A DNA stretch of 32,216 bases, taken from NCBI GenBank assembly GCA_009886045.1, contig VFJO01000286.1, positions 1-32,216 on the forward strand. Reading direction: 5' to 3'. A model generated the notes under the pieces. The model searched no databases. It was given only the letters and a program-made list of their open reading frames with translations, and was not told the DNA's origin. Shown piece by piece: positions 2,853 to 17,103 of this stretch (the first letter of the stretch is position 1; each line of letters starts with the position of its first letter). The position numbers and the translations under genes are program-made. The DNA comes from Verrucomicrobiota bacterium. GTDB taxonomy: Bacteria; Verrucomicrobiota; Verrucomicrobiia; Chthoniobacterales; Terrimicrobiaceae.

Positions 2853-4636
2853 GATTTCTGAGTTTGTAGGGTCCCCTTAAAAATTTCGAGGGCTTTTTCG
2901 ATGAGTGGATCATTGAGAAATTCCGCCATCGGATCCGCGGGAGGCTGCACGGTAACCGGATCGGGGATTTTTGGAGGCTCGGGCTCCGGTTCGGGCTCCG
3001 GTTCGGGCTGGGGAGCTGAAGCCTGCAGACTCTCATCGAACTCGAAGAAAATTTTAACTGGTTGACCCAAATCTTGGAGCAGGCGGACTTCGATATCCTT
3101 GATCCCCTTCTCCATGAACATCGAGCTGCCGGCTTCTCGGAGGGCGGCAGGAAACCGGATGGTCATGCGGCCATTTTCGAGGCATCCAAAAACGCCTTCT
3201 CGGAACCAGCCAAAACGGATCACAGAATTTTTCGAAAACTCGGCCGCGATCCGTTCCCAGCAGAGACCGGCATCCATCGGTGCAGCGGTAGGCGCAGGCG
3301 ACGGAGTCTTGGGTAGCACGGGCGGTGGAGTGCGAACCACAGGCGGCTGAGTGGGCAGCGATTCGAAAAGCTCAATTTTCAGATTGGGGGTGGCTTCCAC
3401 CGGCGCTTTTTCCACCGGCGCTTTTTCCACCGGCGCGCTTTGCAACGGCGTGCTTGGGGCGGAGGACAGTGGGAGGGTTGGCTGTGATGGTTCCTTTATC
3501 GGCATTGACGGAGCTTTGATCGATCGCTCCGGACGTTGGGCCGGAGGTTCTCCGTTGTAGAGTCCCGAGAGCGTTTCGATCACATCCGTGAGGCTTGTCT
3601 CATCGAGGAGGTGGAGCGCTTTGATCACGGCGACATCAAGCTGGAGTTTCTTGTCGGCCACCCATTTCATGGAGGATTCCGCCGCGCTGAAGTGCTCCAC
3701 CAAATCCAGTAATTTTCCTTGGGAGATGAGGCACTCACCTCCTGTGGCTTGGCTAACCAGAAGGTCACGCAAGTGCGACACAACTTCTCCTGTGAGGCGG
3801 GAGAGGTCCTTACCAAGCTCTGATTGCTCGGCAACCGTATCGAGGGCGGAGCCGGCGTTCCCGGAAAAAAGACTATTCACGAGCTGCACCACCACCTCGT
3901 GAGGGGTGAAACCAAAAACATCCATCACATCGCCCGAGCGAATGTGCTCCCCGCAGAATGCCACCATTTGGTCGAGCATGCTCTCGGCATCGCGCAATCC
4001 GCCCTCTGCTCCACGCGCGATGGCATCGGCGGCATCCTCGTCCAAGCGGATTTTTTCGCACTCTGCGATGAAGAGGAGGTGCTTTTTGATGAGTGGCGCG
4101 GGAATGCGACGCAGGTCAAAACGCTGGCAGCGACTTGTGATAGTAGCGGGAACTTTTTGTGCCTCGGTTGTGGCAAAGATGAACTTCACATGGAGAGGTG
4201 GTTCCTCGAGCGTTTTGAGAAGGGCATTGAAAGCGCCTGTGCTCAGCATGTGGACCTCGTCGATGAGGTAGATTTTAAATTTTCCGCGCGTCGGTGCGTA
4301 GGCCGCGCTCTCTCGCAAATCGCGGATATTTTCCACGCCATTATTGCTGGCGCCATCGATCTCAATGACGTCTAAGCTACGTCCATCGGCGATTTCCAGG
4401 CAGGCCGGGCACTTTCCACAGGGCTCTGAAGTCGGGCCATTCTCACAGTTCAACGCCTTGGCAAGGATGCGTGCAGTGGAAGTTTTGCCGATGCCTCGTG
4501 GGCCCACGAAGAGGTAAGCTTGAGCCAGTCGGCTGGAATTTACTGCGTTCTGGAGTGTGCGCGTGATGTGCTCTTGGCCCACCACTTCGGCGAATGTCTG
4601 AGGTCGATATTTGCGGGCAAAAACTCTGTAGCTCAC
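2849..4636 (-). CDS. dnaX: DNA polymerase III subunit gamma/tau
   Basis: This is the 595-residue ATPase of the replicative clamp loader. Visible motifs are Walker A GPRGIGKT (45-52), the zinc-binding cysteines 64, 73, 76 and 79, Walker B YLIDEVHM (123-130), and the sensor/arginine-finger segment ATTEAQKVPATITSRCQRF. A long Pro/Glu-rich linker (about 390-480) contains tandem PVEKA and PE repeats, and a C-terminal tau-like domain follows. The start is GTG at 4636, giving MSYRVFARKYRP; an AGGA element sits seven bases upstream. I saw no A-AAA-AAG slippery heptamer, so a separate gamma form made by frameshifting is not indicated. The gene heads a probable dnaX-ybaB-dcd operon. Confidence 0.96.
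   Translation of the reverse strand: MSYRVFARKYRPQTFAEVVGQEHITRTLQNAVNSSRLAQAYLFVGPRGIGKTSTARILAKALNCENGPTSEPCGKCPACLEIADGRSLDVIEIDGASNNGVENIRDLRESAAYAPTRGKFKIYLIDEVHMLSTGAFNALLKTLEEPPLHVKFIFATTEAQKVPATITSRCQRFDLRRIPAPLIKKHLLFIAECEKIRLDEDAADAIARGAEGGLRDAESMLDQMVAFCGEHIRSGDVMDVFGFTPHEVVVQLVNSLFSGNAGSALDTVAEQSELGKDLSRLTGEVVSHLRDLLVSQATGGECLISQGKLLDLVEHFSAAESSMKWVADKKLQLDVAVIKALHLLDETSLTDVIETLSGLYNGEPPAQRPERSIKAPSMPIKEPSQPTLPLSSAPSTPLQSAPVEKAPVEKAPVEATPNLKIELFESLPTQPPVVRTPPPVLPKTPSPAPTAAPMDAGLCWERIAAEFSKNSVIRFGWFREGVFGCLENGRMTIRFPAALREAGSSMFMEKGIKDIEVRLLQDLGQPVKIFFEFDESLQASAPQPEPEPEPEPEPPKIPDPVTVQPPADPMAEFLNDPLIEKALEIFKGTLQTQKS
2976..3012. repeat. Tandem 12-bp repeat in dnaX encoding Pro-Glu dipeptides
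   Basis: About three copies of a 12-bp unit (GGCTCCGGTTCG and variants) lie inside dnaX and encode a run of six to seven Pro-Glu pairs in the tau linker. This is in-frame microsatellite-like expansion of a flexible linker. Confidence 0.8.
3398..3449. repeat. Tandem 15-bp repeat in dnaX linker
   Basis: Three copies of a 15-bp unit (CCACCGGCGCTTTTT), the last diverged, encode consecutive PVEKA pentapeptides in the proline-rich linker of DnaX. The copy number keeps the frame, so length variation between strains would be tolerated. Confidence 0.85.
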
Positions 4637-4755
4637 GAGGGCATCCTAAAGCTCCCCCGATGGCTCATCCAGCAAGATTTAAGTAAAGATGATGAGATGA
4701 TATCGCTTTCCGCATTGAAGCTGCTGCGCTCTGGTGTCAGTGTTTAGAATATCCT

Positions 4756-5400
4756 ATGAGCCCCCTCCGCTGCGAGAACATCAGTTGCCGCCGAGCCGCT
4801 TCAAATGAGATGAGAAATACGTTTATCAAGGATTTCTCAGCCGTTTTTGAGAGTGGCGATATCACGGGATTCTGCGGCGCGGATACTGAGGGAACGGATC
4901 TCCTCTTGAACATTCTGGGAATGATCGAACGGCCTGATAGTGGCCGACTCGAGGTGCTGAATCGGGAGGTGTTGAGAATGCCAGTGGCGGAATCGATGCG
5001 GCATAGGGACACATCGTTTGGATACCTTTTCACCCACCCACATCTGCTGCCCTCCTTTACCGTTGCGGAGAATGTCGCGATGCCGTTTTTCAGAATCTGC
5101 GGGCGAGATGAGGCCGAGGCCCGCGAGCGCACCCTCAAGGCGCTCGAATTCACCGGCGTGGCCGACCTGCATGGGGTTCCGGTTGGAGAACTTCACGAGC
5201 CAGCGAATTGGAGAGTCGCACTGGCAAGGGCGATTGTTCATTCTCCAGCCGTGCTAATCGCTGTCTCTCCACCCTCTCCGCTACTGCTGCCATTGGTGCG
5301 GCGCCTCGCGGATGAGTTTGGAACAGCCGTTCTGTGGAATGGTGAAAAAACGGATCTAGAGCCATTTGCAAACCAGCTTGTTGAAATGACCCCTCGATGA
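4756..5400 (+). CDS. Degenerate ABC transporter ATP-binding protein homologue (pseudo-ATPase)
   Basis: The 214-residue protein aligns by eye along its length to LolD/FtsE-type ABC ATPases: it keeps LLNILGMIERPDSG, HLLPSFTVAENVAMPF and RVALARAIVHSP. Every catalytic element is altered. The Walker A Lys is Thr47 and the next residue Asp48 (GADTEGTD). The Q-loop Gln is Thr93. LSGGQ is LHEPA (146-150). The Walker B Asp and catalytic Glu are Val170 and Ser171. The H-loop His is Gly196. The frame is nevertheless open and full length, so this looks like a protein kept for another role rather than a random pseudogene. No permease gene is adjacent. Its TGA overlaps the next ATG (ATGA), implying coupled translation with the squalene/phytoene synthase family gene. 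The upstream ribosome binding site is weak. Confidence 0.8.
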   Translation: MSPLRCENISCRRAASNEMRNTFIKDFSAVFESGDITGFCGADTEGTDLLLNILGMIERPDSGRLEVLNREVLRMPVAESMRHRDTSFGYLFTHPHLLPSFTVAENVAMPFFRICGRDEAEARERTLKALEFTGVADLHGVPVGELHEPANWRVALARAIVHSPAVLIAVSPPSPLLLPLVRRLADEFGTAVLWNGEKTDLEPFANQLVEMTPR

Positions 5401-6200
5401 ACACGCTGGAGCTTCTTCCCGCATCCAGCGCGAAGTCCTCGAACCTCGCCTTTGCGTTACGCTGCCTGCCAGCCGATCGCCGCAAGGACGCCATGCTTTT
5501 TTACCGCTTTTGCCGAACCATTGATGATATTGCGGATCGGTCGGGTCTCACCGACGGTGAAAGACGAGAGCAACTCAGCGCGTGGCTGGAGGCCGTGCAA
5601 AGCGGACTCCCCCCAGTTTTAGAGGACGTCGTCACTCGCCATGCGATTGACCGCACGCTTCTGGTCGAGATTATCAAAGGTTGTGCCTCCGACATCGCCG
5701 GGCAGCGCTTTCAATCTTTCGCCGACTTGGAGCAATACTGCTGGCGGGTAGCCGCAGCCGTCGGTCTGGTTTCGATCAAAATCTTCGGCTGTCGTGATCC
5801 TGCGAGCGAGACGTATGCCATGCATCTTGGCCACGCGCTTCAACTCACAAACATCCTCAGAGACATCCGAGAGGATGCCCTGCAAGGCAGGATTTATCTC
5901 CCCCTCGACGATCTCGCCCTCTTCGGCATTGACGAGAACGAAATTCTCAAGCTTGAGCCAAGCCCGGCATTCACCGCGCTTTTGAGGCACCAAGCCGGCC
6001 GGGCTCGAGCCCGCTTTGCTGCAGCCATTCCTCCGAGAGTTGACTTCAATCCTCTCCTCCCTGCTCGCATTATGGGTGCCGTGTACCAGCGAATCCTCGA
6101 TAAAATGGAGCGGGAGCGTTTTCCTGTTCTGCACAAACGAATCAAATTGAGCACCCGTGAAAAAGTTGAATGCCTCATCGGCGCTTGGCTGCGGGGATGA
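5397..6200 (+). CDS. Squalene/phytoene synthase family protein (HpnD/HpnC-like)
   Basis: This is a 267-residue head-to-head prenyl synthase. The first Asp-rich motif is DDIAD (43-47) in FCRTIDDIAD, and the second is NILRDIRED (152-160) followed by GRIYLPLDDL; both coordinate magnesium and the prenyl diphosphates. The DDIAD form resembles the hopanoid-pathway enzymes HpnC/HpnD more than carotenoid phytoene synthases, so presqualene diphosphate or squalene formation from farnesyl diphosphate is my preferred reading. The other hop genes are absent, and phytoene synthase cannot be excluded. It starts inside the stop codon of the pseudo-ABC gene and converges on the DinG helicase gene 42 nt away. 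Confidence 0.88.
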   Translation: MNTLELLPASSAKSSNLAFALRCLPADRRKDAMLFYRFCRTIDDIADRSGLTDGERREQLSAWLEAVQSGLPPVLEDVVTRHAIDRTLLVEIIKGCASDIAGQRFQSFADLEQYCWRVAAAVGLVSIKIFGCRDPASETYAMHLGHALQLTNILRDIREDALQGRIYLPLDDLALFGIDENEILKLEPSPAFTALLRHQAGRARARFAAAIPPRVDFNPLLPARIMGAVYQRILDKMERERFPVLHKRIKLSTREKVECLIGAWLRG

Positions 6201-6242
6201 AGGAGAGAATCCCACGCGTCGAATCTTTTTTTTGAGATCGAG

Positions 6243-8240
6243 TCAGTGGATTTCAACGGGGCATTTCGGCATGGCTTTTAGAAAAGCGCGTCCGTATGGC
6301 TTGGAAACGATCCGACTGTCGAGAATGACGATCGTGCCCGTGTCGGTCTTGCTTCGGATGAGACGGCCAACCCCTTGGCGGAGTTTGAGAATCGCCTCGG
6401 GCAGGGAGTAATTTTCAAAGGCCCGTCCACCTTCGGCTTCGATCGCCTCGAGGCGGGCTTCGGTGAGCGGGTGGTCGGGTGTGGCAAAGGGTAGGCGGGT
6501 GATGATTACACTCGAAAGGGCCTCGCCGGGCACATCGACGCCGGTCCAGAAACTGGAAACGCCAAAGAGGATGCTGTGCGAATTTTCCTTAAACTCGGCT
6601 ATCATTCGCTGCGGCGGCATTCCTCCCCCTTGGACGAGAAGCTGCCAGCCTTTTTTTTCAAAATGCGGCTCGACCAGTTCTGCAACCACTCGCATCGTCT
6701 GGTAACTCGTAAACAGCACAAACGCGCGGGCCTCGCTTTTTTCCGTGAAGTGAGCGATCCACTTGGCGAGAGCCGGCTCGTAGTCAGGCGCCTTGGGTTC
6801 GGGCATTTTCTCGACGAGATGCAGGCTCATTTGCTTCTCGTAGTCGAAAGGACTGCCAATCTGGAGGGCGGGAACGGCTTCTGCCCCCACACGATTTCGG
6901 AAGTACGATAAATCTGGGGCACCAGTGGAGAGTGTCGCACTGGTGAGCACAGTGCAGGCCCCTTCTCGGAAGATTAGCCTGCGGAAGGCCTCTGCGAGAT
7001 TGACCGGCGCGGTACGCAGCGTGCAGAACTCCTCGGTACGCCCGTATTGCTCCACCCAGTAAACGTGGTCGGGTTCCTCAAGTGCAAGAAAGTCGGTGAT
7101 CGCCGACCGTGCCGAGCGGAGCTTGCGGGCGGCCTCTTGGAGCTCAGAAATGTGAGTTTCATTCTCGCATTTTCCAGCCTCAAGGCCTAGGAGTTCGCCA
7201 AGGCGGGCGAGCGCTCCACAGACCGCCCCACCTTCAGCCAATCCTGCTTCTCGAACGCGAAATTCCCTCCCTTTTTTGAATGTGCAATGTTTGGAAACCT
7301 GTTGGAAAAAATCATCAGCCACTGGCAGGACATCGCTCACTGCCCGGCAGGCGGGCCCGTTTTTGAGCATCTGGAAGAGTCCTTTTTTACTACGAGGATT
7401 GTAAAGGCGCTGGATGACGCGGCGCAGACCAAGCTGCGAAACCTCCATGCCAATATGGCGTGCAGCGACTTCCTCGAGCGTATGCGCCTCGTCAAAAATC
7501 ACAAAATCGTTTGCGAAGAGAAGTCCACCGGTGCGGTTTTCGGCATCTTCCACGCCATTGAGAAGAGTGAAAAAAAGCGCATGGTTGAGGACAACCATTC
7601 TGGCATTCGCCACGCGACGGCGAAGATTTTGATAAAAGCACCCGCTGCCTGCACCGCAGGTCTTCGGGGTGCAGAGGTGCTGCTCGCTGCGAACCTCTTC
7701 CCACACAGCAGAGTCCGGCTGCTCCAGAAAATCGCTCAGCGAGCCATCCTTCGTTTCCAGGCTCCACTCGCGAATACGCTCCAGCTCGGCATGTTGCGGT
7801 GTGGTGAATAATTCCTTCGACTGCGTTAGGGCCCGAGCCAAGCGCGTCGTGCAAAGGTAATTTTGCCGCCCTTTCAAGAGCACCGCCTCAAACTCATCGG
7901 GGACGATTTTTTGCACGAGCGGGATGTCTTTGAACATGAGCTGCTCCTGAAGAGCGATCGTGTGGGTGCAGACCACCGCTTTGCGCTTAGTTCTCACTGC
8001 GTGGAGTACTGCGGGCACGAGATAGGCAAGAGATTTTCCGACACCTGTACCCGCCTCGATCACCATGTGTCCACCAGTCTCGATCGTCCGGGCCACGGCT
8101 CCAGCCATGCGTTGCTGCTCGGCACGATATTCGAAAGACGAAGCCCCTGAGAGGATGCCCGTCTCCGAAAAAATGCCCTCTACCTCGCGCTGAAACGGCG
8201 ACGGTGCGCCCGCGTCAAAGTCCTCACGGATCGAAATCAT
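6243..8240 (-). CDS. dinG: ATP-dependent DNA helicase, DinG/XPD family
   Basis: This is a 665-residue superfamily 2 iron-sulfur helicase. Walker A is AGTGVGKS (63-70), and the DEAH box (FDEAH, 249-253) follows. Between them sit four cysteines, at 130, 190, 195 and 201 (HLCTPKTCGAGSGCF), that would hold the 4Fe-4S cluster. C-terminal motifs include VLTSATLS, VSSFWTGVDVPG and LRQGVGRLIRS. The family unwinds DNA 5' to 3' and acts on R-loops, D-loops and damaged DNA. There is no N-terminal exonuclease domain like that of Firmicutes DinG, and the length is in the DinG/YoaA range. No clear Shine-Dalgarno precedes the ATG. Confidence 0.93.
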   Translation of the reverse strand: MISIREDFDAGAPSPFQREVEGIFSETGILSGASSFEYRAEQQRMAGAVARTIETGGHMVIEAGTGVGKSLAYLVPAVLHAVRTKRKAVVCTHTIALQEQLMFKDIPLVQKIVPDEFEAVLLKGRQNYLCTTRLARALTQSKELFTTPQHAELERIREWSLETKDGSLSDFLEQPDSAVWEEVRSEQHLCTPKTCGAGSGCFYQNLRRRVANARMVVLNHALFFTLLNGVEDAENRTGGLLFANDFVIFDEAHTLEEVAARHIGMEVSQLGLRRVIQRLYNPRSKKGLFQMLKNGPACRAVSDVLPVADDFFQQVSKHCTFKKGREFRVREAGLAEGGAVCGALARLGELLGLEAGKCENETHISELQEAARKLRSARSAITDFLALEEPDHVYWVEQYGRTEEFCTLRTAPVNLAEAFRRLIFREGACTVLTSATLSTGAPDLSYFRNRVGAEAVPALQIGSPFDYEKQMSLHLVEKMPEPKAPDYEPALAKWIAHFTEKSEARAFVLFTSYQTMRVVAELVEPHFEKKGWQLLVQGGGMPPQRMIAEFKENSHSILFGVSSFWTGVDVPGEALSSVIITRLPFATPDHPLTEARLEAIEAEGGRAFENYSLPEAILKLRQGVGRLIRSKTDTGTIVILDSRIVSKPYGRAFLKAMPKCPVEIH

Positions 8241-8308: not shown

Positions 8309-10912
8309 CTACTTTCCTCTTGATCGAGTTGTAATTGCTGGTGGCGGCAAATCTTGTGGTAAGCCGAGTGGTTCGACGGCTTCCGCTTCCTCATCCTGTT
8401 GAAGAAGGGGTTGCCCTTCCGCATCCATAAGACGCGCCGTTACGAAAACAATGAGGTTTTTTTTGATCTTCTGGTCTACATTTGATCGGAACAAGCGACC
8501 TGCAAGTGGGATATCTCCGAGAATAGGCACCTTGTCATTGACCTTCTGCACATCCTCACGAATCAGACCTCCAAGAGCGACAGTTTGCCCATCCCAAATG
8601 CTCACACTCGTCGTGACTTTGCGCACGGAGAAGATGGGTTGATTCATGACGTTTGGCGTGATGACAAAAGTTGAAACGCCTGACGGGTTCCCGGCTAGAA
8701 TTGACGCAGGGTCGTAACGTGGACCAATGACGGGCGATCCATAGTTTACAAATCCATCAAACTCAACCACCTCGGGAGATAGAGTGAGATCAATAGTGTA
8801 GTTGTCCGCACCCACCTGAGGTTCAACCTCCAAGCTCACCCCGAGATCTCGCTTTTCGAATGCCGTTGGTGTAGATGGCGTTATCAATCCATTTGTTACA
8901 AAGAGCCCAGCTTCGGGCAGGGTATTTGTTGAAGACGATCCAGTTGTGGGTGGCGGAACCTGCGGCGGGTCAAACTCAGTCGGATAGGGAAATTCACGAA
9001 TGACCTTGATCGTTGCCTTGTTACCACTTTTTGTAGTGACCTTAGGGGCGGACATGAGATCAACGCCCTTTTGCTGACTGAGGGCGCGGATGACCATTTG
9101 GAATTGTGGGTTCGTAAATACGCCAGCGAGGCCAAAAATGCCAGGCGAGGCCACGTTTGTTCCTTGAGGAAGGCCAGCGAGGAGGGCATTTAAGCTATTT
9201 GCTGTAATGGCTGAATTATAACTGGTTCCGATTCCATTACGATTCCCTGCTGTCACAGGATTGCTGCCAACGGAGCCAAAGGGGTAGTTGGAGTAGTATT
9301 CCGAAGAAAGCGCTTGGCCACCGGTGCGAGTTCCTCCGTCCCCATACACTCCGCCACCGATGGAAAAAGGTCCTAGAAGCCAGTCGAATCCCAACTCATT
9401 GACGTTGTTCTGCGAAATTTCTACAAATTTGGATTCAATTTCCACTTGGGTCGGAGCTACACCAGTGGCACCTTCGACAATCGTATCAATCAAATCCACC
9501 GCAGCTTGAGTGTTTCTCACGATGAGCTTACTCCCAGATGCCACGTACTGGGCAAAGGCTCCAGCAGGAAATGGCACACCCTGCTGGGTAAAGTATTCCG
9601 TTGCGTTGCGACGCCCAGTGATGCGGTTATTGAGGTCACCTGATGGCTGATTTCCCGCTGATGGCAGCGCAGCAGCGCTTTCTCCGGTGGATGCAGGAAT
9701 GAAGCCTGGAGGCACGCGGTATTCTTTGGTTACAAGATCTTCTGTATTTTCGGTAAGAGGGAGGAGGGAGACGGCAAACGGCTCGATTTTATATTTCAGC
9801 CCCGCGAGTTCTGTCAGGTAGCGCACGGCTTCAATGAGTGGCACATTTTTTAAAGAGATGGATATTTTTGTGTCTTCCGTGACCCCAGGCGTGGCGGCTA
9901 CTTCCTGTACTTCTGTTGTTGTGGATGGAGTGGGGGCCGAACTCTGTGAGGCAAGTTTGAGAACGATATTCACGCCCTTTTTCTTTGGATCATCCGTACT
10001 GGTGTCGAGTTGGCGGCTTTTTTGCTTGAGAATATCCACCACTTCACGAATCGAGGCATCTTCGAGATCAATGCGGTCGAGAATGATTTTATTCAGCTTG
10101 TTATTGATGGCATCCTTCGAGTTGGCAGATGCGTTTCCGAAAGAGGACCCCTGCGTATCGCGGACGCTTGTGGTAAATTTACGAACTGGCCTTTCCCATG
10201 AACGGTCTGCAAGCCAGAGCATCCGGCTACGGGTTTCGTTGTAGGCACTATCATAGTACGATTTCCTTTGCTTATTAACTTTCTCCATGCCATTTCTGGC
10301 AGCAATATTGTAAGGATCGATGTTAAGAACCTGCTCGTAACGCCTTATCGCCAAATCATTACGACCAGTGGCATAGTATCCCTCGGCTTGATTGAGGAGT
10401 TTCGTTACTTCTTCGCGGTTCGAAGCAGACTTCGGCGTTACTGTGCGATTGTAGTAACCCGGCTGCTCGAGATTAGCCAGCAGTTGCATGGCGGGCTTGA
10501 ATGTGGGATTTAATTCTCTGGAAAGGATTGTTTTAGCCACATTTTCAGCATCTTGGTAGCGACCATTACTGATTAACCAATTGGCATAGTCTAGACCTGT
10601 CTTGCTAAAGTCGGATATCAGACTGGCCACTTTCTTGTTCGACGAAGCCCCTGCCCGTGAGAGCTGTATGGCTTGCAGGTAGCTCGAATAAGCGCCCTCG
10701 AGATTTTTGTCCGCGAGATCTCTGCGGGCTTGGGCGACAAGTTGATCCGCCATTTGAGATTCTTCTTGACGCTTCAAGATTTCTCGTTCGGAGATGGCTA
10801 CTAAATCTGTTTGCGCCTGAATCGGAGCTAGATGCAATGCAAAACCCAAAATAATTGGGAAGGTGGAAAGCGCTTTACGATACAAATGGCTTATTTGAAA
10901 TGAAAAAGTCAT
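8309..10912 (-). CDS. Secretin-family outer-membrane protein, Amuc_1098-like (paralogue 2)
   Basis: This 867-residue protein is predicted to form an outer-membrane channel. It has an N-terminal signal peptide (about 1-33, ending IQA/Q), then TPR-like helical repeats (about 55-215, including AEGYYATGRNDLAIRRYEQVLNID split over 176-199). An STN/AMIN-like domain lies near 270-385, with an N-domain near 435-500. The secretin core follows, with SAPKVTTKSG and DGQTVALGGLIRE, and the signature KVPILGDIPLAGRLFR near the end. It lies 10 nt after a full-length paralogue with the same domain order, so the pair arose by tandem duplication. It is the last gene of the operon. No PilQ-type AMIN repeats or lipobox are visible. 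No Shine-Dalgarno is seen. Confidence 0.9.
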   Translation of the reverse strand: MTFSFQISHLYRKALSTFPIILGFALHLAPIQAQTDLVAISEREILKRQEESQMADQLVAQARRDLADKNLEGAYSSYLQAIQLSRAGASSNKKVASLISDFSKTGLDYANWLISNGRYQDAENVAKTILSRELNPTFKPAMQLLANLEQPGYYNRTVTPKSASNREEVTKLLNQAEGYYATGRNDLAIRRYEQVLNIDPYNIAARNGMEKVNKQRKSYYDSAYNETRSRMLWLADRSWERPVRKFTTSVRDTQGSSFGNASANSKDAINNKLNKIILDRIDLEDASIREVVDILKQKSRQLDTSTDDPKKKGVNIVLKLASQSSAPTPSTTTEVQEVAATPGVTEDTKISISLKNVPLIEAVRYLTELAGLKYKIEPFAVSLLPLTENTEDLVTKEYRVPPGFIPASTGESAAALPSAGNQPSGDLNNRITGRRNATEYFTQQGVPFPAGAFAQYVASGSKLIVRNTQAAVDLIDTIVEGATGVAPTQVEIESKFVEISQNNVNELGFDWLLGPFSIGGGVYGDGGTRTGGQALSSEYYSNYPFGSVGSNPVTAGNRNGIGTSYNSAITANSLNALLAGLPQGTNVASPGIFGLAGVFTNPQFQMVIRALSQQKGVDLMSAPKVTTKSGNKATIKVIREFPYPTEFDPPQVPPPTTGSSSTNTLPEAGLFVTNGLITPSTPTAFEKRDLGVSLEVEPQVGADNYTIDLTLSPEVVEFDGFVNYGSPVIGPRYDPASILAGNPSGVSTFVITPNVMNQPIFSVRKVTTSVSIWDGQTVALGGLIREDVQKVNDKVPILGDIPLAGRLFRSNVDQKIKKNLIVFVTARLMDAEGQPLLQQDEEAEAVEPLGLPQDLPPPAITTRSRGK

Positions 10913-10922
10913 TAGTTAGTGA

Positions 10923-13418
10923 TTATTGGGGTAGTGGAGCGGTGAGAATATCTCCGGGGATGACATCACTCAGCATGGCATTGACGTCAACCTCTGGGAG
11001 AAGTTGGTCATCTTCATCCGCCTCGATGATTGGTTGCCCAGCTGGGTCAAGTAACCCGGCTGTTACAAACATGAGAAGATTGCGTTTGATATGTTGCTCC
11101 GCATTGGTCCTGAAGAGCCTTCCTACTAGTGGGATATCCCCTAGGACAGGAACTTTATCCTGAACTTTTTGCACATCCTCCCGCATGAGACCACCCATGA
11201 CCACGGTTTGTCCATCGTAAACAGATACTTGGGTTTCCACTTCGCGCACGGAAAAGACGGGTTGGTTGATTGTGTTGGCTGTGGCTTCAAAAGTCTGCGA
11301 GGGAAGTACAATATCAGGGCCGGCTACAAAAATGGTTAAGCTGTCGAAAGATTGTTGGACCGTTGCGTTGATTGGGCTGCCATAATTGATAAACCCATCA
11401 AATTCAACAACGCGTGGAGCTAGACGGAGCTCAATCGTGTAGGAATCCGACCCGACCGTGGGTTCAACCTCAAGCGTGATACCAGTATTTTTCGTCTCCC
11501 ATGCGCTTGGCGAATTCGGCACAACAGGAGCGAATGTCGACCCTTGGCTTGCTGAAAGTTGTGGCGGAGTGAACTCAGTTGGATAACGAAATTCTCGAAT
11601 GATTTCAATTTTTGCAGTACTTCCGCTTTTTGTTGTAACCTTCGGAGCGCTAACTAGGTCAATCCCCTTCTTTTGATTCAAGGCTCGGAGGACGACTTGG
11701 AATTGGGGGTTTGTGAATACTCCCGCAATGCTGAGTGCGCCGGCTGCGGGGCCGACCGGGGAGCCAAGGAGCACAGCGTCCAAGGCGCTCAGACTAATTC
11801 CTGTCGTTCCGCCACGGTTGCCTGCGGTCATCGGACCTGATGTACTCGAGGTGGCTCCGACTGGAAGGCCAGTCGCTGGGTTGATCTGAGGGTACCCACT
11901 ATTATCGATCGTTCGGCCGAGGCCAATCGTACCGCCGCCGCCATAAACGCCTGATCCGCCAGCAAGGGCGAACTGACCGAGAAGCCATTCGAAGCCAAGT
12001 TCGTTGAGGTTATTTTGGGTAACTTCCAGGAATTTGGCCTCAATTTCCACCTGTGTTGGCTTAGTGGCTGTAGAGGTATCCACGAGCACATCGACGAGGT
12101 CAAGGTTGGCTTGGGTATTTTTGACGATGAGACGACTGGTGAGAGAAATATAATTCGCACTCGCGCCTGCTGGGAATTCGACGCCTTGAGTTAGCAAAAA
12201 ATCCTTCGCCATGGATTTCGCTGCGATCACGGATTGCGAGCCTGCCGCGAGGCCGCTGATAGGCACAGGAGCGCTCCCGGGCACTGCTTGAATAAAGCTT
12301 GGCGGCACTTTATATTCTTTAGTGATCAGGATATCCGTATTCTCAGTAGCCGGCACGACGACGACCGCGTGGGTTTCGATTTTGATTTTAAGATTAGCAG
12401 CCTCTGTCACATAGCGGAGAGCCTCTCTCAAAGGAACATCCGAAAGCGAAAGCGTGATCGGGTAAGCCGCGTCGGCTGAATCAGCAGGCAACTTGAGTAC
12501 GATATTGATGCCTTTGTTGTCCGAATCGCCCTCATCAAGATCAGCAGCGCGCTTTTTAATGAAATCAAGCGCCTCCTTGATCGAAGAGTCGGTGAAATCG
12601 ATGCGGGGAATGATGATCTCGTCAAGCTTGTTGTTGATGGCTTGGCTACCGCGCGCATCCATTTCCGGTTGCTCGACGATGGAGGTCGGGCCGTCGGAGA
12701 ATTTTTTGACCGGAAGCTCCCAAGCCTTGTCTACTTCCACGAGCATGGCACCGCGTGTTTCATTGTAGGCGGCGTCAGCATACTGCTGGCGCGCGAGGTT
12801 AATTTTCTCCATCAGTCGGCGAGCGGCGATGTTGTATTTATCAATATTCAAGGCCTGCTCGCAGCGCTTGAATGCGATATCGTAGCGTCCGGTGGCGTAG
12901 TAGCCATCGCCTTCTTGGATGAGGCGTTTCACCTCCTCGATGTTGGCAGCGTGGCGCGGAGTCAAGGTGCCACGGTCGGCAAAGCCTTGGGGATCGATGA
13001 GCTGGGAGCGCAGTTTTTTGGCTGGAGCGTAATCTGGGTCGTAGCTGTTTTCTAGGACGACTTCTACTGTCGTGCGAGCATCGGCATAGCGCCCCTCGGA
13101 TACTCGCTGCTGGGCCAGCAGGACTCCCGCGTTGCAGAATCCGCTCAGGGCCTGTTTGCGAATATCAGAAGAGGCTTGGCCGCCTTGGGGAATCGTATCT
13201 ACGGCACTTTTAAAGAGGGCATAGGCCGATTCATAGTCTTTGTCATTGAGCGCACGGTTGCCCTTTTGCACCAAGTCAGCACAGTAGTTGACTTTCTGCT
13301 CAAGCACTTGAATATGAGACTCCACACTCCCCTGAACGCCCGGGTATTGAGCGTAAACGGAGGCGGTGATGTGGCCAACGATGAAAAAAGCGGCAAACCG
13401 GAGTAAATGTTTATTCAT
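10923..13418 (-). CDS. Secretin-family outer-membrane protein, Amuc_1098-like (paralogue 1)
   Basis: An 831-residue protein with a signal peptide (1-23, SVYA/Q), a TPR-like region (about 45-215, including GDGYYATGRYDIAFKRCEQA), an STN-like domain (about 263-360), an N-domain (about 405-465) and the secretin core (about 570-790). Core landmarks are SAPKVTTKSGS, YDGQTVVMGGLMRE and KVPVLGDIPLVGRLF (755-769). A Gly/Asn/Ser-rich variable segment (about 485-560) separates the N-domain from the barrel-forming core. In Akkermansia the equivalent single gene is Amuc_1098. It starts 6 nt after the Amuc_1099-like gene. The two paralogues could form a mixed ring or two separate channels; the sequence does not say which. 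Confidence 0.92.
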   Translation of the reverse strand: MNKHLLRFAAFFIVGHITASVYAQYPGVQGSVESHIQVLEQKVNYCADLVQKGNRALNDKDYESAYALFKSAVDTIPQGGQASSDIRKQALSGFCNAGVLLAQQRVSEGRYADARTTVEVVLENSYDPDYAPAKKLRSQLIDPQGFADRGTLTPRHAANIEEVKRLIQEGDGYYATGRYDIAFKRCEQALNIDKYNIAARRLMEKINLARQQYADAAYNETRGAMLVEVDKAWELPVKKFSDGPTSIVEQPEMDARGSQAINNKLDEIIIPRIDFTDSSIKEALDFIKKRAADLDEGDSDNKGINIVLKLPADSADAAYPITLSLSDVPLREALRYVTEAANLKIKIETHAVVVVPATENTDILITKEYKVPPSFIQAVPGSAPVPISGLAAGSQSVIAAKSMAKDFLLTQGVEFPAGASANYISLTSRLIVKNTQANLDLVDVLVDTSTATKPTQVEIEAKFLEVTQNNLNELGFEWLLGQFALAGGSGVYGGGGTIGLGRTIDNSGYPQINPATGLPVGATSSTSGPMTAGNRGGTTGISLSALDAVLLGSPVGPAAGALSIAGVFTNPQFQVVLRALNQKKGIDLVSAPKVTTKSGSTAKIEIIREFRYPTEFTPPQLSASQGSTFAPVVPNSPSAWETKNTGITLEVEPTVGSDSYTIELRLAPRVVEFDGFINYGSPINATVQQSFDSLTIFVAGPDIVLPSQTFEATANTINQPVFSVREVETQVSVYDGQTVVMGGLMREDVQKVQDKVPVLGDIPLVGRLFRTNAEQHIKRNLLMFVTAGLLDPAGQPIIEADEDDQLLPEVDVNAMLSDVIPGDILTAPLPQ

Positions 13419-14419: not shown

Positions 14420-15364
14420 CTACTTGGGTGAGGGAGTGGTTGACGACTTGGCGGGGGTGGCACTCTCGGAGTCTGGGAAGTTGAGGATTTCGACCTCAAG
14501 AGTGGTGGTGACAGATTCGCGCCCGAGAATGGCTTGAATGGTTTCGGCAGAAGGGGCCGTAGCTCTCGGCAAAGAAGCGCCACTTATCAATGCGGATGGG
14601 TCACCAGCCTGCGTCTTGAGGGGCGGATTGGGACTTGTATTATCAATTAGGAGCGAACGGATAAAAAGAAAATCATTGGTATCTTGGATTAGGTTGAAGG
14701 CGGTAAGGAATTTTTCTTGAGGGGCGGTAAAAGTGATGATGAAGGTTTTGGAAGAAATGGCGGGTGGTTTTGATGGCTCGGTGGCTCCGCTCGGTTTGGG
14801 GGGCTGCCCGGCGGGCATCGGCGAGGTCTTTTTTTCTGTTTCTTTACGAACGAGCGAGCCGATGGAATCAATTTTGAGATCAACAAGGCTGTCGGTGAGT
14901 CTCTGGATGACACGAAATTCGCGGTTTAGCTCTGGAACTTCTTGTTGCGAAGGCGGGGTCGATTGGTATTGATCTAAGCCGTAGAAGAAATTATCAGGAA
15001 GAAGTACCACTTTTTCTATTGCTTTTTTACGCAAATCATCCGCAGCTTTGCGCAGCTCGTCTTGAAACTCTTGGGGGTTGATGCTGACGAGTGGTTCCTC
15101 CATGGCAGCGAGTGCCGCTCGATATTTGCCAATTTCGGCTTTGTACTCATCCAAGCTGGCTTTTACCTCTTTCAGACTCTGATCGGTTGGAAAAGGCTTT
15201 TGATTTTGAAACTGTTTGAGTTTCTGCAGTTGAGCGTCCAAGTTGGCCTGCGCCTCATTGCGGCGGGAGGAAGCATCGAAAGCCAAATAAGAAGTGGCCC
15301 CCACTCCAAGAATGGTCAAGGCGAGGAGCACTGAGGCTATTGGGTTCTGCTTAAACCAGTTCAT
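14420..15364 (-). CDS. Amuc_1100-like pilus-system membrane protein
   Basis: The 314-residue protein has one N-terminal transmembrane helix (about 9-28), a coiled coil (about 32-90), and a C-terminal alpha/beta part (SKTFIITFTAPQEKFLTAFN) interrupted by a Pro-rich stretch near 193-215. Size and topology match Amuc_1100 of Akkermansia (about 317 residues), a protein known for its effect on host Toll-like receptor 2 signalling. The layout of helix, coiled coil and ferredoxin-like domain also resembles PilO of type IV pilus alignment complexes, and it directly follows the PilM-PilN gene (ATGA overlap), where PilO would be expected. Homology to Amuc_1100 is supported by architecture and gene order; I could not run an alignment. 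Confidence 0.82.
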   Translation of the reverse strand: MNWFKQNPIASVLLALTILGVGATSYLAFDASSRRNEAQANLDAQLQKLKQFQNQKPFPTDQSLKEVKASLDEYKAEIGKYRAALAAMEEPLVSINPQEFQDELRKAADDLRKKAIEKVVLLPDNFFYGLDQYQSTPPSQQEVPELNREFRVIQRLTDSLVDLKIDSIGSLVRKETEKKTSPMPAGQPPKPSGATEPSKPPAISSKTFIITFTAPQEKFLTAFNLIQDTNDFLFIRSLLIDNTSPNPPLKTQAGDPSALISGASLPRATAPSAETIQAILGRESVTTTLEVEILNFPDSESATPAKSSTTPSPK

Positions 15365-17103
15365 GGGAGGAGGAGAGGCTTTGCGAGAGGCAACACCAAG
15401 GTGTAGCCGTAGGCCCAGGCCTCACCTGTGGGCGTGGTCCGGCGGGTGATGATTTTTGAGGAATCCTCACCGATGGAAAAAACGGTGGATGGTTTCAGAT
15501 TGTTAAAGAATTTGTCAATGACTCCAGCGCCTTCAGCATTAGGCGGATTGTCGAGGTAGAGGCCGTTGATTTCAATAGCCGTGATGGCTTTCGGGCCTGA
15601 AGGAGGAGCGGGGGGCTTGGGCGGGGCTTTGGCGCCTGGAGCGAGTTTGGGCTCTGGCTGGAGAACGACTCCTTCAACCGGCTTGATCTGCGTGACCCAG
15701 ATAAAGCGCTGAGGAATGGTGGAGGCTAATTCATCAAGAATCGTTGCCCAGAGGGACTTTTCCGTGGCAATGGAAAGAAACGGGGCCGCCTCGGCGACGA
15801 GTTTGTCACGATCTGCAAGGGCGGCAGAGATGGCTTTTGAGAGAGTTTCCAAGCGAGTTACCTCAGCAGTCTGCCTCTCAACTTTCTCACTAATGCGGAG
15901 GGCAGATTCGTCAAGGTCCAGCCAACAAAGAGCTGGAGTGAGGATCAAAAAGAGCGAGGCAACAGCAAGGGCTGGGAGGCGCTTTGCAAAGAGTTGAGCC
16001 TGACGAACGCTGGGGGGGGTGAGGTTAATCTCGACCGGACAATCCTTAATGGATCGAAGGGCGCAGCCGACTAATTCTGGAAGGCCAGACGCACAATGCG
16101 AGAGACCCTGCGGGAGCGCGTCTGGAGCAACCTGCACATTGCGCAGCGGATTGAAAAACTCGACGGGCGCTTGGAGTTTCTCGGCAAAAAATTCGGTCAT
16201 GTAGGACAAGCCCGTACCTCCGCCGCAAATCAGAATCCGCATGGGAGTAGTGCCTCCGTGGGTGGTGCGATAGAAGTTGATCGAGCGAGCGATTTCCGCG
16301 TGGAGGCGGGTCATCGTATTGCGAGTGACCTTGGCGAGGCGGGCTTCAGTCGGGTCCTCAGACTCGGCATAAGCGCCACCGAGTCCGACGCTGCCTTTTT
16401 CGATCTTCAGCTTTTCGGCGAGGGTGATTTCTTGGGCAAATTCCTTGGCGATTGCTGCGCTGATTGAACTTCCACCGATTGGGATGCTCCGGCTGAAAAA
16501 ACGGTTCTCCTCGACAAAGACAAGATTTGTAGTGCGGGCCCCTAAGTCCAGAAGAAGAGCACATCCTTTGACATCGGAGTAATTATATCGGAATGAGTTA
16601 AGCAGGGCCGTAGGCGAGAAATCGATTTTCCCCGACGCAATACCCCCTTTGCCCAGAGCCAAGACAAATTCGTTTAACTGGTCGGCTTTAATTGCCACGA
16701 TCGAGACGTCCCAAGCTTCGCCTCGGCGATCACCCATGATCTGGTAATCCCAGACAACTTCATCAATCGGAAATGGCACGTTTTGCTGAGCCTCGAATCC
16801 GATGATTGACTCAACGTCCTGAGCTGTGGCGCCGGGGAGTTTTACCGATCGGGAAAATACAGCTTGTGAGGGAAGGCAAATATGCGTCACCGCTTTTGCA
16901 GGAGCTTGAAGCGCTGTGCGAAGTTCGGCAGATACCGATTCGATCTGGCTATTGCGAGTGGCGTCGGCCGCGGGATCAACGATGAAATCGGCCGTTGTTA
17001 TTGCTACTAACTTCAAGCCGCCAGCAGGCAATTCTTGAAACTCGGCCATGCTTGCGGTCTGCATGCCGAGATTAAGAGCAAAAATTCGAGCTGGGCGGGC
17101 CAT
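15361..17103 (-). CDS. PilM-like actin-fold ATPase fused to a PilN-like membrane domain (Amuc_1101-like)
   Basis: The 580-residue protein is far longer than ordinary PilM (about 350). Residues 1-352 are the PilM/FtsA-like actin fold, with phosphate-binding motif LLDLGARTTNLVFVE (184-198) and nucleotide motif ILICGGGTGLS (290-300). Then comes VEINLTPPSVR (357-367), which resembles the INLLP peptide at the PilN N-terminus that docks on PilM. A transmembrane helix (about 376-396), a coiled coil (about 400-440) and a PilN-like periplasmic domain with a Pro/Ala-rich insert follow. I read it as a PilM-PilN fusion. PilM normally sits on the cytoplasmic side and passes signals from the motor to PilN/PilO. 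It is 6 nt from the preceding gene and overlaps the next by 4 nt. Confidence 0.9.
   Translation of the reverse strand: MARPARIFALNLGMQTASMAEFQELPAGGLKLVAITTADFIVDPAADATRNSQIESVSAELRTALQAPAKAVTHICLPSQAVFSRSVKLPGATAQDVESIIGFEAQQNVPFPIDEVVWDYQIMGDRRGEAWDVSIVAIKADQLNEFVLALGKGGIASGKIDFSPTALLNSFRYNYSDVKGCALLLDLGARTTNLVFVEENRFFSRSIPIGGSSISAAIAKEFAQEITLAEKLKIEKGSVGLGGAYAESEDPTEARLAKVTRNTMTRLHAEIARSINFYRTTHGGTTPMRILICGGGTGLSYMTEFFAEKLQAPVEFFNPLRNVQVAPDALPQGLSHCASGLPELVGCALRSIKDCPVEINLTPPSVRQAQLFAKRLPALAVASLFLILTPALCWLDLDESALRISEKVERQTAEVTRLETLSKAISAALADRDKLVAEAAPFLSIATEKSLWATILDELASTIPQRFIWVTQIKPVEGVVLQPEPKLAPGAKAPPKPPAPPSGPKAITAIEINGLYLDNPPNAEGAGVIDKFFNNLKPSTVFSIGEDSSKIITRRTTPTGEAWAYGYTLVLPLAKPLLLP

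Follow-up and report, generated by a model that had tools for sequence, protein, structure and literature searches.

Few ATPases are as abundant as ABC cassettes, and several described systems resemble the locus reported here. LolD (TIGR02211) is the ATPase of the lipoprotein-releasing complex LolCDE. In ABC proteins, the segment after the Q-loop forms the groove that receives the coupling helix of the permease. The degenerate sites of heterodimeric exporters and of CFTR keep nucleotide binding. Nucleotide-binding domains (NBDs) without the full set of catalytic residues also keep a role in these transporters, as described in three articles (PMC7756269, PMC12038006, PMC10115640), and in these cases they are domains of a transporter and lie beside a consensus site. 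In C-P lyase, the ABC cassettes PhnK and PhnL are bound not to a transporter but to an enzyme core (PMC9947105); both bind and hydrolyse ATP, and this activity is essential to C-P lyase. On the side of isoprenoid lipids, HpnD (TIGR03465) is the presqualene diphosphate synthase.

We analyzed a DNA stretch of 32,216 nucleotides from a Verrucomicrobiota bacterium, called the window in the following. It contains a gene for a pseudo-ABC ATPase, and its product and the relatives thereof are called pABC. Very probably, pABC is a conserved non-hydrolytic pseudo-ATPase that is functionally tied to the squalene/phytoene synthase family protein encoded directly downstream. The features are as follows.

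4756..5400, plus strand: pABC, pseudo-ABC ATPase of 214 aa, with a LolD-type nucleotide-binding fold and every nucleotide motif replaced
4876..4902, plus strand: former Walker A motif, residues 41-49, GADTEGTDL (LolD counterpart GPSGCGKST)
5005..5103, plus strand: conserved island of residues 84-116 (RDTSFGYLFTHPHLLPSFTVAENVAMPFFRICG) that covers the former Q-loop and coupling-helix groove, from the alignment of 49 relatives
5191..5211, plus strand: former LSGGQ signature, residues 146-152, LHEPANW, from the alignment to LolDs
5248..5280, plus strand: former Walker B/D-loop, residues 165-175, AVLIAVSPPSP, from the alignment to LolDs
5323..5355, plus strand: former H-loop, residues 190-200, TAVLWNGEKTD, from the alignment to LolDs
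5397..5400, plus strand: ATGA stop/start overlap, 4 nt, of the pABC stop with the synthase start, read from the sequence
5397..6200, plus strand: gene for an HpnD-like protein of the squalene/phytoene synthase family, 267 aa, with DDxxD and RDxxxD motifs (Pfam, NCBIfam)

The pABC reading frame starts with ATG and has no internal stop. The product was matched by the Pfam family ABC_tran (PF00005) with an E-value of 8.4e-12 and 46.3 bits (gathering score 25) over profile positions 2-132 of 137. The best NCBIfam model was LolD (3.8e-23), followed by DarD and then FtsE, and LolD was also the best sequence match among solved structures (1.9e-18). The AlphaFold2 model had a pLDDT of 94.0 and a pTM of 0.90, and LolD chains ranked first in the Foldseek search (E 1.6e-18, TM 0.85). 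By profile score as well as by NBD fold, pABC is a member of the ABC ATPase fold. It shares with LolD the fold, a length within about 10-20 residues, the groove block and the best matches, but it has lost all nucleotide motifs, reaches only 82.2 bits compared with the cut-off of 307.75 bits of the LolD equivalog, and is linked to a terpene synthase. The gene is flanked by dnaX, the synthase gene and a gene for a dinG-like helicase, and lolC/lolE permease genes are not adjacent. A promoter/terminator scan of positions 4600-6300 gave no usable signal.

The motifs of the window pABC were read by alignment to intact LolDs of the same class. The complete set of an active ABC ATPase, i.e., GxxGxGK[ST], the Q-loop Gln, LSGGQ, the Walker B Asp with the catalytic Glu, and the H-loop His, is replaced. 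The Q-loop Gln is a Thr (GYLFT, where LolD has GFVFQ), LSGGE of LolD has become LHEPA, the Walker B motif ILADEP corresponds to LIAV, so that the Asp-Glu pair is absent, and VTHN of the H-loop corresponds to WNGE. Judged from these missing residues, pABC would not hydrolyse ATP; in this it would differ from PhnK and PhnL. Altogether, 49 pABC sequences from seven families of one order (f1, f2, f4, f7, f8, f9, f13) were aligned. They were collected by profile and by inspection of loci with an upstream membrane gene (see below), and the sampling is uneven; the pABC-synthase pairs in G063, G064, G088, G092 and G095 and a broken copy in G025 are not among them. The Walker A Lys is present in 35 of the 49 rows, the adjacent Ser/Thr in three and the Q-loop Gln in one, and no row has LSGG, the Walker B Asp (Glu in 22 rows), the catalytic Glu or the H-loop His. 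In family f7, GKT is retained in three of the four rows; by eye, the Walker B stretch of f7 can alternatively be aligned with one Glu-Pro kept, but never with the Asp-Glu pair. Going by these counts, the P-loop was apparently the last to erode, in the window's genus, after the dimer and catalytic motifs had been lost. The first-pass annotation had described an intact ABC-ATPase reading frame of 214 aa with all catalytic motifs replaced, and the reading frame, Pfam, NCBIfam, the fold and the LolD alignment bore this out, as they did, with Pfam support for the synthase, the overlap with a squalene/phytoene synthase family gene. Its view that all motifs were lost simultaneously had to be abandoned, because the loss was stepwise: the Walker A Lys persists in most rows, whereas no row has kept the signature, Walker B or H-loop.

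A different picture was seen for the region behind the former Q-loop. R84, G89, F92, L97, E105, N106 and A108 are invariant in the 49 pABC relatives; thus, the pair Glu105-Asn106 is retained in every row. The mean identity among pABC rows was highest for groove residues 92-116 (0.61) and the post-signature helix (residues 153-164; 0.62), in contrast to 0.41 for Walker A, 0.28 for the signature, 0.33 for Walker B and 0.28 for the H-loop. In the canonical rows used, the respective values for these four motifs were 0.71, 0.70, 0.78 and 0.52. Among the 12 rows of the window's genus, identity was 0.86 over residues 92-116, compared with 0.56 overall. Residues 84-116, especially 92-116, are taken by us to be the coupling-helix groove. 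The alignment indicates that the constraint is inverted in pABC: it has vanished from the nucleotide and dimer motifs and has been kept on the fold core and the groove. The conserved groove residues are in part general ones of ABC NBDs, and they could have been retained for folding alone.

The groove block LLPxFTxxENxxxP is common to pABC and intact LolDs, and the nearest families and folds of pABC are LolD, MacB and FtsE. Heterodimeric transporters in which one of the sites is degenerate are also familiar (PMC7756269, PMC12038006). It is conceivable, though improbable, that pABC is a dead NBD subunit of which the groove still docks a LolC/E-, MacB- or FtsX-type permease, as part of a mixed or idle ABC complex with its dose set by the coupling to the synthase. 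However, no FtsX- or LolE-type permease was found among the other tested proteins of the window or the ten tested flanking proteins of relatives, and the linkage of pABC is to a terpene synthase instead. In addition, the P-loop side and the signature side are both degraded, and because both half-sites are affected pABC would be unable to complete the nucleotide site of a partner. In this respect it differs, as a stand-alone gene with both half-sites lost, from the degenerate domains of heterodimeric exporters and CFTR. The operon contains neither a partner NBD with a consensus site nor an ABC transmembrane domain; such a partner may be encoded elsewhere in the genome.

The linkage to the synthase is nearly invariant. 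The synthase gene is directly downstream of pABC in 48 of the 49 cases, i.e., in the window, in 20 of 20 further cases of its family, in 17 of 17 of the order and in 10 of 11 further loci; the only exception is G050, in which pABC and the membrane gene are present but no synthase gene follows downstream. The two genes overlap by ATGA or GTGA in 45 of 48 pairs, and the remaining three are separated by 3, 168 and 238 bases; in some rows the nearest start in the scripted count lies further in, and the overlapping start shares its frame. We read the overlap as a sign that pABC and the synthase are translationally coupled. The outer neighbours vary between genera and families, and dnaX-ybaB-dcd is found in a part of the window's genus.

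The synthase of the window is a member of the family SQS_PSY (PF00494; 1.3e-63, 215.6 bits, threshold 26) with both Asp-rich motifs. Residues D43, D44, D47, D156 and D160 are invariant in the 21 aligned synthases. HpnD was the best NCBIfam model for the window synthase (242.3 bits, cut-off 278.6) and for eight other operon synthases tested, all nine at 210-271 bits. The window synthase is like HpnD in its best model and in the catalytic Asp residues, but it scores below the cut-off and lies outside an hpnCDE operon, and it is a predicted HpnD-like enzyme. A hopene cyclase is encoded in 12 of the 26 genomes of the family, including that of the window. A role restricted to hopanoids was rejected as a simple rule, because the presence of the hopene cyclase does not track pABC: G016 and G020, for example, have pABC without the cyclase, and G006 and G011 have the cyclase without pABC. 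The HpnE profile was uninformative, since all 26 family genomes and all 14 control genomes matched and none of them above the cut-off. Another contig of the window's genome (G000:C275, L140: 6718-7200) carries a further gene of the squalene/phytoene synthase family, with an identity of about 33%, and near it, at C275:7221, is a match of the FAD-oxidoreductase type (weak HpnE); this region is perhaps a carotenoid cluster.

In many related operons (f1 genera g2 and g5, f4, f7, f9, f13), a gene for a polytopic membrane protein, about 383 residues long, is located upstream of pABC. It was found in 120 of 213 genomes of the order (E<=1e-6). A sample of the class had it in 29 of its 384 genomes and a sample of the phylum in 2 of 288, and all of these 29 and 2 genomes belong to the window's order. 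Forty membrane-gene loci were scanned: 20 had the arrangement membrane gene-pABC-synthase, 17 membrane gene-synthase and one membrane gene-pABC, and in two the gene was alone within the flank, i.e., L156, which lies at a contig end, and L144, with pABC just past the flank (cf. L131). No membrane gene was detected in the 16 genomes of the window's genus at E<=1e-6, and pABC occurs without it also in g3, g4, f8 and some members of f4. The membrane protein belongs to no Pfam family, and neither Pfam nor PDB gave a notable sequence match. Its model (pLDDT 89.5, pTM 0.88) reached in VIA-align a Z of 15.0 to yeast PNS1 and human CTL1 (entries 9f63, with rmsd 4.9 and 266 aligned, and 9qu3, both at Z 15.0); CysZ was at Z 9.5 and the next row at Z 5.1. 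The Foldseek match was weak (E 6.5e-3). The protein may thus share the fold of CTL/SLC44 proteins (human CTL1, yeast PNS1) and CysZ, but differs from them in lacking a notable sequence match and in being confined to the window's order in the samples searched. The similarity of CysZ to PNS1 is reported in a 2026 article on CTL proteins, whose authors argue against a transport role (PMC13160678). We set aside a classical ABC permease as the identity of the membrane protein, since Pfam gave no notable match and none of the best-ranked folds was an ABC permease, although absence from these lists makes it only less likely. Two further observations concern this gene. The product of L052: 6341-7486 and 25 aligned rows form an order-restricted membrane family whose genes nearly always adjoin the synthase gene, and in G061 a gene for a canonical-looking ABC protein (GKS, LSGGQ) with a very long tree branch is located just upstream of the membrane gene (L206: 1433-3373).

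Five of the 26 family genomes have no pABC at E<=1e-20. Four of them, G006, G011, G013 and G019, have the synthase, and G015 has neither; homology searches revealed no pABC trace in G006, G013 and G019, and G011 keeps a remnant of 33 aa. In the loci of f11 and f10 that were read, the membrane gene adjoins the synthase gene and pABC is absent. pABC is therefore dispensable, since the synthase persists in its absence in four genomes of the family. From the synthase loci without pABC and from the mismatch with the hopene cyclase, pABC and the membrane protein are each an optional companion of the synthase, which is the common denominator. These data also bear on the possibility that pABC is a co-translated, chaperone-like helper that stabilizes the synthase and has no role at the membrane. 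The frequent ATGA/GTGA overlap and the persistence of pABC without the membrane gene would fit such a folding helper; nevertheless we consider it unlikely, because the synthase does without pABC in the four genomes and in f11/f10, and thus is not generally in need of it.

The reading that we prefer is that pABC, a non-hydrolytic NBD of the LolD type, is a stoichiometric accessory or docking subunit of the HpnD-like synthase, and we assign to this mechanism as a whole a probability of about one half. The loss of the ATP motifs, the retention of the gene and its probable co-translation with the synthase suggest that pABC became a structural partner of the enzyme. By the stop/start coupling, pABC and the synthase would be made together. 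With the NBD fold kept, the Q-loop/coupling-helix groove may offer a rigid surface for the docking of a helix, which in many lineages would be supplied by the membrane protein of the operon with its CTL/CysZ-like predicted fold. pABC would then bridge the soluble synthase to the membrane, into which substrate and product partition. This bridge cannot be general, because pABC occurs without the membrane gene in several groups; in the window's genus, with its wholly eroded P-loop, pABC might have the synthase itself or a different membrane protein as its direct partner. The physical contact between pABC and the synthase, the bridging and an effect on terpene synthesis are our inference.

More tentatively, and with the odds somewhat against it, the operon may encode a membrane assembly of three parts that has not been described before and belongs to one Verrucomicrobia order. 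Its components would be a CTL/CysZ-fold membrane protein, a non-hydrolytic ABC pseudo-ATPase whose coupling-helix groove is reused for an adaptor function, and a squalene/phytoene synthase; the ABC module, once a motor, would now serve terpenoid synthesis as a membrane scaffold. If this is true, the CTL fold, the function of which is disputed, would gain a bacterial context connected with isoprenoid lipids, and the operon would be a genetic lead on that function. pABC itself would be a clean case of evolution from enzyme to scaffold with the intermediates still visible, i.e., a stand-alone family without nucleotide motifs that was kept for its fold in seven families. Its strict link with a terpene synthase, joined in many lineages by a CTL/CysZ-like membrane protein, opens the organization of the first squalene/carotenoid step at the bacterial membrane to testing. 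A search of the openly accessible literature yielded no account of the pABC-synthase gene pair, which is no proof of novelty.

In the tree, the 49 pABC rows are split from 13 canonical ABC rows with a support of 100/100 and one label change; the canonical rows were drawn from the same genome, order and class, and the tree has long branches and some unsure placements. The pABC tree broadly tracks the families f1, f7, f8, f9, f4 and f13. Intermediates of the P-loop are still present across the clade (GKT, GKN, GKG, none), and the survivors with the Lys are found in other genera and families, whereas the P-loop is destroyed in the window's genus. The Lys in 35 rows and GKT in f7 would be in accord with pABC as a nucleotide sensor that binds without hydrolysing and tunes the synthase to the energy state. 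We regard such a sensor as slightly less probable still than a folding helper, because the P-loop of the window's genus was destroyed although the gene is still under selection, and because the Walker B Asp is missing throughout and the Ser/Thr in 46 of the 49 rows.

A pABC relative was found in 21 of the 26 genomes of the window's family (E<=1e-20), and 38 of 213 genomes of the order matched the family profile at E<=1e-45; further, more divergent members were found adjoining the membrane gene. The six named records that matched were Spartobacteria, Chthoniobacter or Verrucomicrobia MAGs, and a match to Serratia (24% identity) was dropped. The profile search of the class yielded many matches (1e-38 to 1e-50), and the four inspected ones outside of the order (L195/L215, L196, L197, L216) were ordinary ABC proteins. 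Because these four keep intact motifs, pABC is likely absent outside the order. Contamination was ruled out, since G025 has pABC between dnaX and the dinG-like gene in the same order. The pABC of the window and that of G025 are 95% identical, and the dN/dS of this pair is 0.144, no higher than that of the adjoining synthase genes (0.275). Over 19 pABC pairs, the pairwise values (Nei-Gojobori), for which synonymous sites are near saturation in distant pairs, ranged from 0.045 to 0.383, the latter from the recent pair G024/G017 with a dS of 0.067; one pair of the set had no differences. These values indicate that pABC is under purifying selection. A sequencing error or a young pseudogene was ruled out by the conservation across many genomes together with the low dN/dS; the frame of the window pABC is unbroken and its evolution is not neutral.

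Ordinary decay was observed in a second copy. G025 has a second pABC-synthase pair (C2, L136: 6879-7780) in which the pABC frame is broken and the synthase is truncated. The corresponding stretch in the genome of the window retains only the last 82 residues of the synthase (G000:C163, L137: 5793-6041), and the DNA is 89% identical to G025:C2 over 1.9 kb. Their flanking DNA shows the two to be orthologous, and they are closest to the G012-type pair, which suggests an old duplication or transfer that has since decayed. The second copy shows truncation and frameshift, and the window copy is unlike it. That pABC is a slowly dying relic, kept only via translational coupling to the synthase, is very improbable, since the several losses within the family and the decayed copy and remnant just described, which would fit it, are outweighed by the selection at the amino acid level over the 19 pairs, the restriction of truncation and frameshift to the second copy, and the persistence of pABC in seven families.

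Thus, the first-pass annotation was right that the gene is unlike one in ordinary decay, and the orthologues next to synthase genes that it had proposed to look for, as well as a dN/dS well below 1, were indeed found. It had counted absent or broken orthologues in close relatives as evidence against its proposal; this applies to five of the 26 family genomes, and the majority has the gene. Because orthologues adjoin the synthase and dN/dS is well below 1, its suggestion of a conserved non-hydrolytic role linked to isoprenoid lipids stands as the best reading; the more specific scaffolding or regulatory function that it named remains a conjecture.

Three further features were seen elsewhere in the window. 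Two adjacent genes on the minus strand (8309-13418) encode secretins of 867 and 831 aa, both matched by Pfam Secretin. A PilM-type gene (15361-17103) follows these tandem secretin genes, and together they form one pilus/type II secretion-like cluster. Lastly, a 15-base repeat in about four copies (3395-3455) is located in the region of dnaX that encodes a proline-rich linker.
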